From an uncultured Kordiimonas sp. (GTDB taxonomy: Bacteria > Pseudomonadota > Alphaproteobacteria > Sphingomonadales > Kordiimonadaceae): a stretch of DNA of 64,000 nucleotides. The position numbers and the translations under genes were made by a program. Position 1 is the stretch's first letter, and every line of letters begins with the position of its first letter. Below the pieces are notes generated by a model. The model worked only from the letters and a program-made list of their open reading frames with translations. It made no database searches and had not been told where the DNA came from. The DNA is taken from contig CANLMI010000002.1 of the NCBI GenBank assembly GCA_947492375.1, positions 807,529 through 871,528 on the forward strand, read 5' to 3'. Positions 44,503-51,200 of the stretch are shown here, one piece after another.

Positions 44503-47487
44503 ATGAGTAGTAGAAAACGATTATTATTGGGCGCTAGTACATTAGCCATTTTTTGTTCTGGTGCAGCATCTGCCCAGAGCGCAACGCAAGATAACGATGA
44601 TGAAGTAATCGAGGAAGTTGTAGTTACAGGCATCCGCGCATCTTTACAACGTGGTTTGGATACAAAACGTAATGCAAGTGTTGTTGTAGATGCAATCTCA
44701 GCAGAAGATGTTGGTAAATTCCCAGATCAAAACGTCGCAGAGTCGCTTCAACGAATCACAGGCGTTGCTATTACACGGTCACGTGGCGGTGAAGGGCAAT
44801 TTGTAACAGTTCGTGGCCTTGGTCAGGAATTTAATACGCTCACCTATAAAGGTCGGGAACTCGCAACGGAAAATCCTGGGCGCGAATTTTCGTTTGACGT
44901 AGTGCCATCAGAACTGATTAGTGCAGCACAAGTTTTCAAAACTGTAGCTGCAAGCCAAACCGATGGATCGATTGGTGGTTTGGTAAATATCGAAACAGCT
45001 AGCGCACTCGCTCGCCCTGGTTTTCATATTACCGCTTCAGCAGGCACTCAACTAGAAAGCCTAAATGATGAGTTTGGATTTAAGGGCGCCTTAATTTTAT
45101 CCGATACATTCGCCGACGATACATTTGGTATTATTGGCTCGATCGCTTTCCAGGAACGCGACTTTAGAACAGATACAGCAGAATCGATCAATATTGACTC
45201 TTCTACAGACTTTAACGGTGACGGTGTCAATGACCGCTTGAACTCTTTCAACGGAAACGTAAACTTTGAGGAACGGGAACGACTAGGGGCAACCTTGGCA
45301 CTGGAATGGCAACCAAGCGACGACACGAAAGTTGTTATCGACGGCTTGTATACAAGTTTCGAAAGCCCCAGTAATTCAGACTCGTTTTCAGTATTCACTC
45401 AGCCACCTAACGTTACAGATGCTGTTGTAGACGAATTTAATAATGTAGTATCCCAAAACACCAACTTTGGCGCCAACGGAACATCAAATAACTTTGGCGT
45501 TGCTTTCACAAACATCTTTGATGTTATTGCGCGGCAGGCACAAACTGATACAGAAACGTATCAGGTTGGTTTAAACTACGAACAACGTTTCACTGATAAT
45601 TTTACAGTAAAATTTGATGCCTCATATTCTAACGCTGATGGTGTTCGTGACAATATCTTTACAGGTAATGGCTCAGGTTCATTCTTCGTGGTTGGATTTC
45701 CTGGGTTAAATTTCTCACAAACTGCAAATGGGGGCCCTGTTCCGGATGCGGTATTCGGTATCCTGCCTTCCTTTAATACAGGACCATTTGGCGGAGCTAA
45801 TCCTGTTACAAGCCTTGATCCGTCAGTAAATGTAGATCCGTTACTTGTTGGCATTGATGAACTTTCCGCAGAGAACTCACGATTACACTTCTCACGTAAC
45901 TCATCCAATTTTGTAGAAGACGAAATCTTCACTGTTCGCGGCGATGCAACTTGGGATGTAGGGGAAGACGCAACATTAAAATTTGGCTTTGATTATATTG
46001 ATCGTGAAAAATCCAATCAATTATTTGATAACGCTAATGGTTTCTGCGGCGATGCAACCATAGCAATTCCATCTTTAACTGACCCTGCTGGTAACGAACA
46101 AACAGCATTCGTCTGTGACCGCTCAATCGGGTTTGCAGACCTGCTACCAGCCGATCAGCTTGCTAATCTTCTCACTTTGTTTGATGGTGAAAGCGAAGGC
46201 TTTTTAAGCAGTACTGACGCAAACATACCGCGTAACTTCTTAACCGTTAATCAGGAAGTAGTTGAAGCAGCATTTTTAGCCTTAGGTCAATTGCCAGGCG
46301 TTCGTAGGGATGCTGACGGCAATATCACTGAGTCTGGCACAGTTGCCTCTCTCTCCGGCGTAGCAAGCTTCCTAAATCCAGCTCTTAACCAAGTTCAATC
46401 AAACACTATTGAAGAAGAAATCTTTAGTTCTTATGTTCAAGCTGACTTCCAAGGTGAGTTTGCCTCAATTCCGTTCAGAGCAAACGCAGGTGTTAGGGTT
46501 GCAATTACTGATGTCACGTCAACAGGCGCATCTTCAAACCTGACCTTCATTACAATTGACCCTCTTGCAACAGGCGGCTCAGGTAATAATCCAATTACCG
46601 TCGATAACACAGGTGTTTTAGAGGTGCAGAATCAATACGTAGATGTTTTGCCATCTTTTAATATCTCGTTCGACCTGAGAGATGATCTGATCTTTAGAAC
46701 CGGCTTTTCGCAATCACTCGCGCGGCCAACCTTTAATGATTTGTCTACTGTATTTGCAGTTACACAAATTAACGAAGGCACCGAAGCTACATCGGGCGGC
46801 AACCCTAATCTGGAAGCTGTAAGGTCCAACAACCTGGACTTCTCAGTAGAATATTATGGGGAGAATGGATTAACCTTGACGCTTGCTGGTTTCTATAAAG
46901 ATATCAATAACTTCATTGCCAATGGTAATTCAGACCTTACGATTACCATACCTGATTCACTCAATGTACAAACAGGTCAGTCTGACGGGCCAGTCACAGT
47001 TACATTCGAAAACTCAGGCCCACTAAACGGCGATGATGCAGAAATTTTTGGCTTAGAACTTGGTGCTCAGTATTTGCATTCATCAGGCTTTGGTGTTGCT
47101 GGTAACCTGACACTCGCTGATTCGAACGCTACATTCGGCGGCAATCCTGGGCAGTTTGAAAATATTTCAGACTTCTCTGCCAACGCTTCTGTTTTCTATG
47201 AAAACCACGGCCTGCAAGCCCGTGTTTCACTCAATCACCGTGGTGAATTCCTATCATCGACAGAGGGAGAAGGTGGATTTGCAGAATTCACCGCAGACTT
47301 CACACAGGTTGATCTATCAGTATCTTATAGTTTGGAAGAGCTGACAGGGCACAATGTTTCTCTCTTTGTTGAAGGTATTAACGTGTTCAACGAACAGTTC
47401 TTCAACTTCTCTGAGCAACCTGCTGTACTTGAGTCATTCATTGACAACGGCGCACGTTGGTTATTCGGTGCTAGATACTCGTTCTAA
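44503..47487 (+). CDS. TonB-dependent receptor (TIGR01782-like, carbohydrate-type)
   Basis: 994 aa; signal peptide, EEVVVTGIRASLQRGLDTKRNASVVVDAISAEDVGKFPDQNVAESLQRITGVAI plug, C-terminal FGARYSF. Confidence 0.93.
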   Translation: MSSRKRLLLGASTLAIFCSGAASAQSATQDNDDEVIEEVVVTGIRASLQRGLDTKRNASVVVDAISAEDVGKFPDQNVAESLQRITGVAITRSRGGEGQFVTVRGLGQEFNTLTYKGRELATENPGREFSFDVVPSELISAAQVFKTVAASQTDGSIGGLVNIETASALARPGFHITASAGTQLESLNDEFGFKGALILSDTFADDTFGIIGSIAFQERDFRTDTAESINIDSSTDFNGDGVNDRLNSFNGNVNFEERERLGATLALEWQPSDDTKVVIDGLYTSFESPSNSDSFSVFTQPPNVTDAVVDEFNNVVSQNTNFGANGTSNNFGVAFTNIFDVIARQAQTDTETYQVGLNYEQRFTDNFTVKFDASYSNADGVRDNIFTGNGSGSFFVVGFPGLNFSQTANGGPVPDAVFGILPSFNTGPFGGANPVTSLDPSVNVDPLLVGIDELSAENSRLHFSRNSSNFVEDEIFTVRGDATWDVGEDATLKFGFDYIDREKSNQLFDNANGFCGDATIAIPSLTDPAGNEQTAFVCDRSIGFADLLPADQLANLLTLFDGESEGFLSSTDANIPRNFLTVNQEVVEAAFLALGQLPGVRRDADGNITESGTVASLSGVASFLNPALNQVQSNTIEEEIFSSYVQADFQGEFASIPFRANAGVRVAITDVTSTGASSNLTFITIDPLATGGSGNNPITVDNTGVLEVQNQYVDVLPSFNISFDLRDDLIFRTGFSQSLARPTFNDLSTVFAVTQINEGTEATSGGNPNLEAVRSNNLDFSVEYYGENGLTLTLAGFYKDINNFIANGNSDLTITIPDSLNVQTGQSDGPVTVTFENSGPLNGDDAEIFGLELGAQYLHSSGFGVAGNLTLADSNATFGGNPGQFENISDFSANASVFYENHGLQARVSLNHRGEFLSSTEGEGGFAEFTADFTQVDLSVSYSLEELTGHNVSLFVEGINVFNEQFFNFSEQPAVLESFIDNGARWLFGARYSF

Positions 47488-47506: not shown

Positions 47507-47533
47507 CAGGTGGTGCTCTAAAGGCACCACCTG
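47507..47533 (+). terminator. Hairpin after TonB-dependent receptor gene
   Basis: CAGGTGGTGC-TCTAAAG-GCACCACCTG 10-bp perfect stem; no T-run. Confidence 0.55.
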
Positions 47534-47590: not shown

Positions 47591-48988
47591 TTGACCGCTA
47601 TATTGTCCGAAACGGAGACCCTTCACATATCTGCATCAGTAGAAATAAACGAGCACCTTACTGCAGTTGATACCCTGATTGGTTTAGGCCAAATTCAGAA
47701 AGCAACATTTCAGGCACAACAAGGCGCTCAACTATATTCGAACAACGTCGTAGCTCTTTTAAAATACATCGAATGCTTACGTCTCAGTGGCCGCGCATTA
47801 GAAGCTGGCAACATTTTATCACACGCCATACAAATTGCGCCTGATAATGCGCATGTACTTTTTGAGTTAGGCCTCTTGCACGAACGTAAAAATGAGATTG
47901 GGTCCTCAATAAATTATTATACGAAGGCAATTGAACACGCAGATTGCCCCAAACAGGCTTATTTACAACTAGCCGCGCTATACAGTCGTAGTGACAACAA
48001 AGCCGGCGCTTTAAACGTTCTCATCGCTGCTGAAAAAGCATTCCCAGAAGACCCGGATATTATTTACATGAGAGGCAGGATGGCTGCTGGCTATACATCA
48101 GCATGGCATTTACCAATGCTGGCAGATGATGCACGCAATCATGCATACCAACAAGCCATTCAACAAACCATCAGAACCGGTGACATTGTATTGGATATTG
48201 GAACTGGCAGTGGGCTTCTCGCGATGATGTCAGTAGAAGCTGGTGCCGAACATGTATATGCATGTGAGAGCAATCCAATACTTGCAGACTTAGCAAATAA
48301 AGTAATAGCCCAAAACGGCATGGATCATGCGATAACCATAATATCAAAACACTCCTCTCAAATGGCAGTTGGCATAGATATGCCTGTTCACGCAGATGTA
48401 TTAGTGACAGAAATATTTGATAATGCCCTAGTCGGCGAAGGTGTACTACCATCCATAAACCACGCATGGTCACATCTATTGAAATCAGACGCCCGAATAA
48501 TTCCACACGGTGCTACTTTGAAGGCTGTTTTGGCGAGTGCCCCAACTATGAACAGGTTTCATACTGTTACACGAGTAAGCCAATTTGACTTGAGTGCCAT
48601 GAGTGCACTTGCTCACCCAATGAGCTATAAAGATATAGAACCCAGCTTTTTTAATGATGGTGCCAATCAGGTTTTAAGCGACCCCTTTATTGTTAAGTCA
48701 TTTGATTTTACAAGCTCTCCGGCACTTAACTTTCAAGAATATTCAGATGCCTTAGTAACAAAAGACGGTGTGGCCGATTCTATAGTTCTGTGGTTTGATT
48801 TGCACTTAACCAGTGACATTGTATTTTCGACCGAAAGAATAGAACCCCATCAACATTGGCGACAAGTTTGCCAAGTGCTTTTACAAACGACTAATGTACA
48901 AAATAATACCAAGTATCAGGTTTTAACACAGTATAATCGTTATTATCATTTTCAACTCAACCCAATAGCCCCGGAAGAACAGTATTGA
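47591..48988 (+). CDS. TPR repeat protein fused to PRMT-type (PRMT7-like) SAM-dependent methyltransferase
   Basis: TTG start; N-terminal TPR repeats; [29 protein letters not shown] (SAM motif I), LVTEIFDNALVGEG (double-E loop), EPHQHWRQV (THW-like loop). Confidence 0.8.
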   Translation: MTAILSETETLHISASVEINEHLTAVDTLIGLGQIQKATFQAQQGAQLYSNNVVALLKYIECLRLSGRALEAGNILSHAIQIAPDNAHVLFELGLLHERKNEIGSSINYYTKAIEHADCPKQAYLQLAALYSRSDNKAGALNVLIAAEKAFPEDPDIIYMRGRMAAGYTSAWHLPMLADDARNHAYQQAIQQTIRTGDIVLDIGTGSGLLAMMSVEAGAEHVYACESNPILADLANKVIAQNGMDHAITIISKHSSQMAVGIDMPVHADVLVTEIFDNALVGEGVLPSINHAWSHLLKSDARIIPHGATLKAVLASAPTMNRFHTVTRVSQFDLSAMSALAHPMSYKDIEPSFFNDGANQVLSDPFIVKSFDFTSSPALNFQEYSDALVTKDGVADSIVLWFDLHLTSDIVFSTERIEPHQHWRQVCQVLLQTTNVQNNTKYQVLTQYNRYYHFQLNPIAPEEQY

Positions 48989-49056: not shown

Positions 49057-49704
49057 ATGGAATGGCAAGCAGCAACATTTTTTGAATCACCTGTATTCAA
49101 GTTTCAATTTGCAAACACACAAGATGCGAAAGATTTTTTCTTTGAAAAGATACGCCACGAGGTTAATGACACGGAAAGGTATGAACAGGGCGAATTATCG
49201 CATTACCATTCACGGTCGAATGTTTTTAATACCTATCCCGAACTAAAGGCCCTCGGTGACCAATTAGAACGTGCAGGAACATTCGTATATCAACAACTGC
49301 TTAATTATCAAGATTCCGGCCCCCTAAAAATGACCAACGCATGGTATAATTTGTGTGAAGTTGGCGGAACCCAGCCGATGCATAACCATGTAAACTGCCT
49401 ATTGTGTGGTACAATCTATCTTCATGCTGACCCGAATACAAAAATACAATTTGAACACCCTCAAGCCAATCCAGCATCACATGCAGAACTATACGACAGG
49501 CCATCTGACCAACCCAATCAATTTGGCCTTAAGTTTCATCAGAGAATAGCTCAAATCGGCTTAAAAACAGGCGACTGTTTATTTTGGCCAGCACACCTTA
49601 AACATGGATATAGTAAAAACCAAACGCCAGGGCGGCTAACATTATCGTTTAACTTAATGCCAGAAACCCTGAATGTTGATTACCAAGTCCGTGCGAACCA
49701 TTAG
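49057..49704 (+). CDS. Putative 2OG-Fe(II) oxygenase superfamily protein (TIGR02466-like)
   Basis: NAWYNLCEVGGTQPMHNHVNCLLCGTIYLHADPNTKIQFEHP ... GDCLFWPAHLKHGYSKNQTPGRLTLSFNL (H...H..R arrangement). Confidence 0.75.
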   Translation: MEWQAATFFESPVFKFQFANTQDAKDFFFEKIRHEVNDTERYEQGELSHYHSRSNVFNTYPELKALGDQLERAGTFVYQQLLNYQDSGPLKMTNAWYNLCEVGGTQPMHNHVNCLLCGTIYLHADPNTKIQFEHPQANPASHAELYDRPSDQPNQFGLKFHQRIAQIGLKTGDCLFWPAHLKHGYSKNQTPGRLTLSFNLMPETLNVDYQVRANH

Positions 49705-49766: not shown

Positions 49767-51200
49767 ATGTTAGATTATTCACAAGTGGGCGTTTTTATCT
49801 TTTTGACAGCCCTCATCGGGTTTCTGACCTATATGAATTGCCGTAAGGCAGATCAAGGAAGCGCCTCATCCGACCATGATTATTTTTTAGCAAACGGCGG
49901 GCTATCTTGGTATTTCATTGCTGGCTCTATTACACTTACAAACCTATCTACAGACCAACTTGTAGGAGCTAATGGAAATCAAATGCTATTAGTTGCCTTA
50001 TGGGAACTAGCGGCCGTTGTCGGCTTAGGTATTTTGGCATTTGTCTTTCTGCCAATATATTATCGCAACCAATGCACAACAACCACAGAGCTTTTACAAA
50101 AGAAATACGGCGATAAACATATACGAGCCTTGATTTCATTATTGTTCTTATTCGGAAATATTTTTATTTTTCTTCCCGTTGTGCTGTACAGCGGGTCTTT
50201 GTTCATGCAATCCTTAACAGGGACTGACTTGCCACTGGTATTGATTGCAAGCTGTTTTGCCGTAGTTGGCGCATTATATGCAATTTTAGGTGGCCTGAGA
50301 GCCGTTGCTGTTTCCGATACATATAGCGGTGTTCTCTTACTTGCGATGGCGCTTATTGTTACCTACTTGGCCCTTAATGCAATCGATTTTGATCTAAGCG
50401 GTATTCCAGCAGAGCGCTTAACATTAATTGGTGATAACAATTCTGAAATACCATGGCATACATTATTAACAGGTATGGCCTTTATCCAGATGTTTTACTG
50501 GAGTACAAATCAAGTTATTACCCAACGAGCAATGGCAGCCCCGAATATTCGCGAAGCACAAAAGGGGGTTATGGCAGCCGCCTTTATAAGACTTATGATT
50601 GTCCCTGTTATTATCACTATCCCTGGCATAGTAGCGTTTAAATTATACGGTGATATTAATGATGAAGCCTATGGAAGAATAGTCTCTGAAGTTCTACCAC
50701 CATATCTTTCCGGCGCTTTTGCAGCCGCACTGGCCGCTGCTGTGTTAACATCATTTAATAGTATACTGAACGCTTCAGCAGCACTTTATGTTTGTGATAT
50801 TCACGAAGCATACTTCAAGAAAATCAAAAATGTCCCCGCTTTCAGTGGCATAATATGTGCTAGCCTCGCGGCATTCGCAATTATCCTTGTGCCGGTTTAT
50901 GCAACACGAGAAAGCCTCTTTACAACCATTCAAACTTTATTCGGATTACTTTCAATGCCAATTTTATCGGCATTTATCGTATGCTTGGTCTTCAATAACG
51001 TAAACGCAAAAGCCGCAATTATCGGGGTGATAACTGGCGTGGCCTTCTATGCCTTTTTCATCTTTGACTGGGAACCATTCCATTATATCCACGGGATGGC
51101 CATTACCTTGGTACTTTGTATTACTGTGGCGCTTCTCGCTAACCGCTTACTCTTTGGGCAAAAAGCATCACTAGCATTTGGCCGGGCTTCAACAGGATAG
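49767..51200 (+). CDS. Sodium:solute symporter (SSS) family transporter, probably for a sugar
   Basis: 477 aa, multi-TM; GSITLTNLSTDQLVGANGNQM, TNQVITQRAMAAPNIREAQKG. Confidence 0.88.
   Translation: MLDYSQVGVFIFLTALIGFLTYMNCRKADQGSASSDHDYFLANGGLSWYFIAGSITLTNLSTDQLVGANGNQMLLVALWELAAVVGLGILAFVFLPIYYRNQCTTTTELLQKKYGDKHIRALISLLFLFGNIFIFLPVVLYSGSLFMQSLTGTDLPLVLIASCFAVVGALYAILGGLRAVAVSDTYSGVLLLAMALIVTYLALNAIDFDLSGIPAERLTLIGDNNSEIPWHTLLTGMAFIQMFYWSTNQVITQRAMAAPNIREAQKGVMAAAFIRLMIVPVIITIPGIVAFKLYGDINDEAYGRIVSEVLPPYLSGAFAAALAAAVLTSFNSILNASAALYVCDIHEAYFKKIKNVPAFSGIICASLAAFAIILVPVYATRESLFTTIQTLFGLLSMPILSAFIVCLVFNNVNAKAAIIGVITGVAFYAFFIFDWEPFHYIHGMAITLVLCITVALLANRLLFGQKASLAFGRASTG

Follow-up and report, generated by a model that had tools for sequence, protein, structure and literature searches.

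A single-module TPR protein of predicted PRMT7/PRMT9-type arginine methyltransferase activity in a Kordiimonas genome

Protein arginine methyltransferases (PRMTs) have been treated chiefly as eukaryotic regulators, and among them PRMT9 has N-terminal TPRs. Eukaryotic PRMT9 (e.g. 8rbk, 6pdm) comprises two tandem PRMT modules; PRMT7 has no TPRs and is likewise built of tandem modules in mouse (4c4a) and C. elegans (3wst), whereas the T. brucei enzyme (4m36/5eku) has a single module. In bacteria, SznE/StzE of Streptomyces acts as an arginine-guanidino methyltransferase in streptozotocin biosynthesis, a pathway that uses N-omega-methyl-L-arginine (PMC11705231). Our search of the open-licence literature, which left subscription journals mostly outside its reach, found no description of a bacterial PRMT7/9-type family; the protein considered here is presented as a further member of the PRMT family, and a first description is not claimed. 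A catalytically intact family of this type across several bacterial phyla, whose members often bear the label of L11 methyltransferase or TPR protein in annotations, would allow protein arginine methylation to be studied in simple genetic systems and would make the origin of PRMT7 and PRMT9 testable.

The gene lies at positions 47591-48988 on the + strand of a 64,000-nucleotide stretch from an uncultured Kordiimonas sp., the window of this analysis, and the reading frame was found at exactly these positions, with all the peptides quoted in the original prediction. It encodes 465 residues from a TTG codon. Because the earliest in-frame ATG corresponds to residue 160 and falls inside the fold, the start is taken to be this TTG or another non-ATG codon close by. 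The frame has no stop codons or frameshift, the opposite strand is rich in stops in the frame read, and a single overlapping reverse-strand ORF exceeds 100 aa (111 aa). After about 4.5 TPR repeats come a Rossmann domain for SAM binding and a beta-barrel of PRMT type. The N-terminal repeats, proposed earlier from the letters alone, are recovered by Pfam TPR_14 and TPR_19 above cut-off at residues 29-164, and as nine model helices over residues 7-168 (47609-48094). The PRMT part contains the SAM-binding motif I, VLDIGTGSG (residues 200-208, 48188-48214), a post-I stretch VYACE, the double-E loop TEIFDNALVGEG (residues 273-284, 48407-48442) and a C-terminal beta-barrel and dimerisation-arm region with model strands and short helices (residues 305-465, 48503-48985), within which lies the THW-type loop QHWRQ (residues 421-425, 48851-48865); all are on the + strand. 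The PRMT oligomerisation subdomain PRMT_C (PF22528) is matched at residues 326-441 with 1.1e-10 and 42 bits against a cut-off of 27, and Pfam and the structure model agree on one PRMT module.

What kind of methyltransferase is this? Searching the PDB by phmmer returned mouse PRMT7 as the best sequence match (1.4e-46), with PRMT9 at 3.9e-30, T. brucei PRMT7 at 4.8e-25 and PRMT1 at about 7e-18. An AlphaFold2 model built from 40 sequences (mean pLDDT 93.2) contains the N-terminal helices, the Rossmann domain and the beta-barrel, and its top Foldseek match in the PDB is bovine PRMT9 (9e-27 over 477 columns), followed by mouse and T. brucei PRMT7 and then by PRMT3 and PRMT1. The alignment is longer than the PRMT core, which fits the N-terminal TPRs of PRMT9 (8rbk), and for the combination of TPRs with a PRMT part the fold search points to full-length PRMT9 as the closest structure. 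The two proteins have a core of the same type (WH..ML.D..RN..Y..AI, TE..D..L.GEG) at about 23-28% identity, and differ in that PRMT9 has two tandem modules and the present protein one. With key residues kept in 68-74 of 74 homologues, the phmmer and Foldseek values place the PRMT match far beyond chance. The original prediction of a PRMT7-like candidate, to be checked by PRMT and PrmA profiles and by structure prediction, is thus borne out: the PRMT beta-barrel, double-E loop and THW-type loop are present, PF22528 scores above cut-off, the best profile matches are PRMTs, the best fold matches are PRMT9 and PRMT7, and the double-E glutamates are conserved. The label itself is refined, since PRMT9 is matched as well as PRMT7. 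Judged by sequence and model, the protein belongs genuinely to the PRMT family, as a bacterial member, and we predict with high confidence that it is a PRMT-fold arginine methyltransferase.

An enzyme of the PrmA (ribosomal L11) kind, or another Rossmann methyltransferase that is no PRMT, was considered and rejected. The Pfam PrmA match at residues 188-281 (3.6e-11) and the L11 methyltransferase annotation carried by homologues would suggest such an enzyme, but the match is limited to the Rossmann SAM-binding part that the two have in common, the NCBIfam prmA model reaches 32 bits against a cut-off of 183, and the barrel, double-E and THW features, which PrmA lacks, are specific to PRMTs; we regard the probability of this reading as negligible. 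Anti-phage defence was likewise set aside, its sole sign being that PADLOC mad2 matches the Rossmann region, which is not diagnostic.

The catalytic residues of PRMTs are preserved to a high degree. Following the motif definitions of PMC12925635, we built an alignment of 74 bacterial homologues to which five eukaryotic PRMT sequences, drawn from PDB alignments, were added; the PRMT1 and CARM1 query sequences match the PDB chains residue for residue. D179, R182, G204, G206 and G208 are aligned and identical with PRMT1 D51, R54, G78, G80 and G82, as are E226, E274, E283, H422 and W423 with E100, E144, E153, H293 and W294. Both motif I (VLDxGxGxG) and the post-I acidic residue, here E226, are present. 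R182, the motif I glycines G204, G206 and G208, E226, E274 and W423 are invariant in the bacterial rows (74 of 74); position 179 is D in 73, the second double-E glutamate, E283, is E in 68 (the exceptions being L069, L071, L134, L136, L140 and L142), and H422 is H in 49. The double-E glutamates stand nine residues apart in a loop nearer to those of PRMT7 (TELFDTELIGEG) and PRMT9 (TETVDAGLFGEG) than to that of PRMT1 (SEWMGYCLFYES), and the loop type assigned to this stretch beforehand can be retained together with that of the THW loop, in which T is replaced by Q. T. brucei PRMT7 has Q before the tryptophan of this loop where the present protein has H, and because H, not Q, occupies the position, the product type, be it the monomethylarginine of a type III enzyme such as PRMT7 or asymmetric or symmetric dimethylarginine, is not readable from the sequence. 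In the dimerisation-arm region the model has two short helices (318-324 and 335-340), and a stretch SQFDLS aligns with PRMT1 GFDMS; the arm looks short. A catalytically dead PRMT retained as a TPR scaffold would be conceivable for a gene that is isolated in its own family and diverged, where decay would be possible, yet every checked catalytic and SAM-binding residue is intact in a frame free of stops and frameshifts, and we consider this reading very improbable.

How is the protein related to the eukaryotic enzymes? A quick tree of 79 rows did not settle where the eukaryotic sequences belong; in it T. brucei PRMT7 joined PRMT1 and CARM1, which the program flagged as long branches meeting. Another tree, computed under a mixture model from 38 hand-chosen rows, separates PRMT7, PRMT9 and all bacterial rows from PRMT1 and CARM1 with support of 100/99, but does not resolve the placement of PRMT7 and PRMT9 within the bacterial-side group; since its rows were picked for diversity after the first tree was known, only the broad split is taken from it. 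The second tree is the better supported of the two and, as far as sequence can tell, sets the bacterial enzymes on the PRMT7/9 side, so that the protein appears closer to PRMT7 and PRMT9 than to the type I PRMTs. We do not file it as PRMT7 or PRMT9 itself, because it has one module against the two tandem modules of animal PRMT7 and of PRMT9. Whether the eukaryotic enzymes fall inside or outside the bacterial tree is resolved by neither tree, given the long branches. We would put forward only tentatively the broader proposition that the bacterial single-module TPR-PRMTs form a broad, largely unstudied family of true protein arginine methyltransferases, sister to, or the source of, eukaryotic PRMT7 and PRMT9. 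If this were true, the TPR-PRMT architecture of the latter would have been in place in bacteria before the tandem duplication.

As to function, we consider it likely that the protein is a cytoplasmic, single-module protein arginine methyltransferase of PRMT7/PRMT9 type acting on a protein client, an activity predicted from its sequence and modelled fold. The N-terminal TPR superhelix would hold the client protein or peptide, and SAM would be bound in the Rossmann domain by motif I and E226. By homology to solved PRMTs, the E274/E283 pair, aided by the QHW loop, would position and activate the guanidino group of arginine, and the methyl would go to a terminal guanidino nitrogen. Dimerisation through the barrel arm is probable by analogy with PRMTs. 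TPRs are found in 24 of 40 aligned homologues and PRMT_C (PF22528) in 29 of 40; because some relatives have no detectable TPRs, a TPR-held protein client would not be universal in the family.

The main rival to a protein client is a PRMT-fold enzyme whose substrate is arginine in free form or a small metabolite or peptide that contains it, in the manner of SznE/StzE, with the TPRs serving complex assembly only. That a bacterial arginine-guanidino methyltransferase is known (PMC11705231) gives this reading a precedent, the adjoining 2OG oxygenase and importer could belong to a small-molecule pathway, and one plasmid homologue lies under a gene annotated as a nonribosomal peptide synthetase. The likeness to SznE/StzE is one of description; the latter precedes SznF in a small-molecule pathway, whereas no N-nitroso pathway genes, nor other biosynthetic genes in the window, adjoin the gene studied here. 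TPR arrays are moreover typical of protein binding and recur in most of the aligned homologues, and the neighbours differ between relatives, unlike those of a dedicated pathway. A small-molecule substrate seems to us unlikely on this balance, and a protein client remains the preferred reading.

Could the neighbouring genes point to that client? On the + strand the gene is preceded by a TonB-dependent receptor of the TIGR01782 family (44503-47487, profile search) and followed by a putative 2OG-Fe(II) oxygenase matching PF13759 in Pfam (49057-49704) and by a sodium:solute symporter (49767-51200, profile search), the last gene of the apparent operon; the gaps are 103, 68 and 62 bases. This run adjoins a DeoR regulator, a GH36 alpha-galactosidase and genes whose sequence reads as galT and galK, and the four genes of the run are probably co-transcribed as one operon beside a galactoside-utilisation cluster. 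The gap between receptor and methyltransferase holds an 11-bp stem-loop without a T-run (47507-47533, + strand; z = -3.07 for the whole intergenic stretch), which may be an mRNA processing or attenuation point tuning the downstream genes.

The original prediction suggested that this arrangement would be a protein-modification module with the adjacent receptor and oxygenase, and this suggestion found no support beyond this genome. The oxygenase is the sole PF13759 member of its genome, and a search at E <= 1e-10 through the other genomes of a phylum-wide draw of 399 brought up no further match; the 29 other genomes of the family likewise yielded no receptor at E <= 1e-100; close homologues of either elsewhere gave no strong match in the sampled genomes, one of the searches being weak in that it scored the top two candidates per genome. 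We sought five window proteins around the relatives by single-sequence phmmer, from which remote homologues may escape and for which some contigs end near the gene, and found a homologue of none of the five, receptor, oxygenase and symporter included, whether in the L031-L079 set, where up to 10 kb on either side of the methyltransferase gene was covered, in 20 further loci or beside the nearest relatives, so that a conserved TonB/oxygenase module was rejected. Nor is there, by inspection, a conserved upstream partner in the relatives, whose upstream genes of about 200 aa are mutually unrelated. On present evidence the association with the receptor and oxygenase looks lineage-specific. A dedicated TonB-receptor modification module of receptor, methyltransferase and oxygenase, with the receptor or another product of the operon as the methylated client, would accord with the common strand and short gaps from receptor to symporter, but none of the relatives examined has these neighbours, there is no sign that the receptor is the substrate, and the receptor is exported while the methyltransferase has no evident export signal; we give this reading little credence.

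The nearest relatives of the protein, at 43-44% identity, come from two genomes of one alphaproteobacterial family (G297 and G883); the matched stretch in G297 contains one TGA. In its own family the gene occurs in 1 of 30 genomes. The rarity suggested by the original prediction, which took PRMTs to be rarely described in bacteria, is overstated: their distribution is patchy, yet homologues are common in Alphaproteobacteria (47 of 386 genomes at E <= 1e-30), occur in 12 of the 399 genomes of the phylum draw and, among the matches listed in a one-pattern scan of genome contigs, also appear in Actinomycetota, Bacteroidota, Cyanobacteriota, Acidobacteriota and Kiritimatiellota, all occurrence counts being lower bounds. 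On plasmids, several copies carry the annotation L11 methyltransferase or TPR protein. Foreign base composition was considered for the present locus and rejected, as the G+C content around the gene is uniform at about 39-47% and gives no compositional sign of recent transfer.

Further observations concern other loci. In a Kiritimatiellae genome (L065:9992-12067) we find a 691-aa tandem PRMT with a degenerate-looking first module and a second one that has retained the double-E loop and is matched by PRMT_C, an arrangement reversed with respect to animal PRMT7/9. In two genomes of the same phylum as the present one and another class (L147:4014-14001 and L148:1456-8741), a TPR-PRMT gene is arranged in tandem with genes for TPR proteins having GT41 (O-GlcNAc-transferase-like) domains, a possible cluster of TPR-guided protein modifiers. 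Loci of the same order (L007-L012) encode distant PRMT-like proteins, several of them with D replacing the double-E glutamates, and with a C-terminal extension that is PqqD-like by eye; one adjoins an HPr-kinase-like gene, and these proteins are possibly peptide-modification enzymes. In Tistlia consotensis (L034:8414-12365), two PRMT-like ORFs of 835 and 478 aa lie next to each other.
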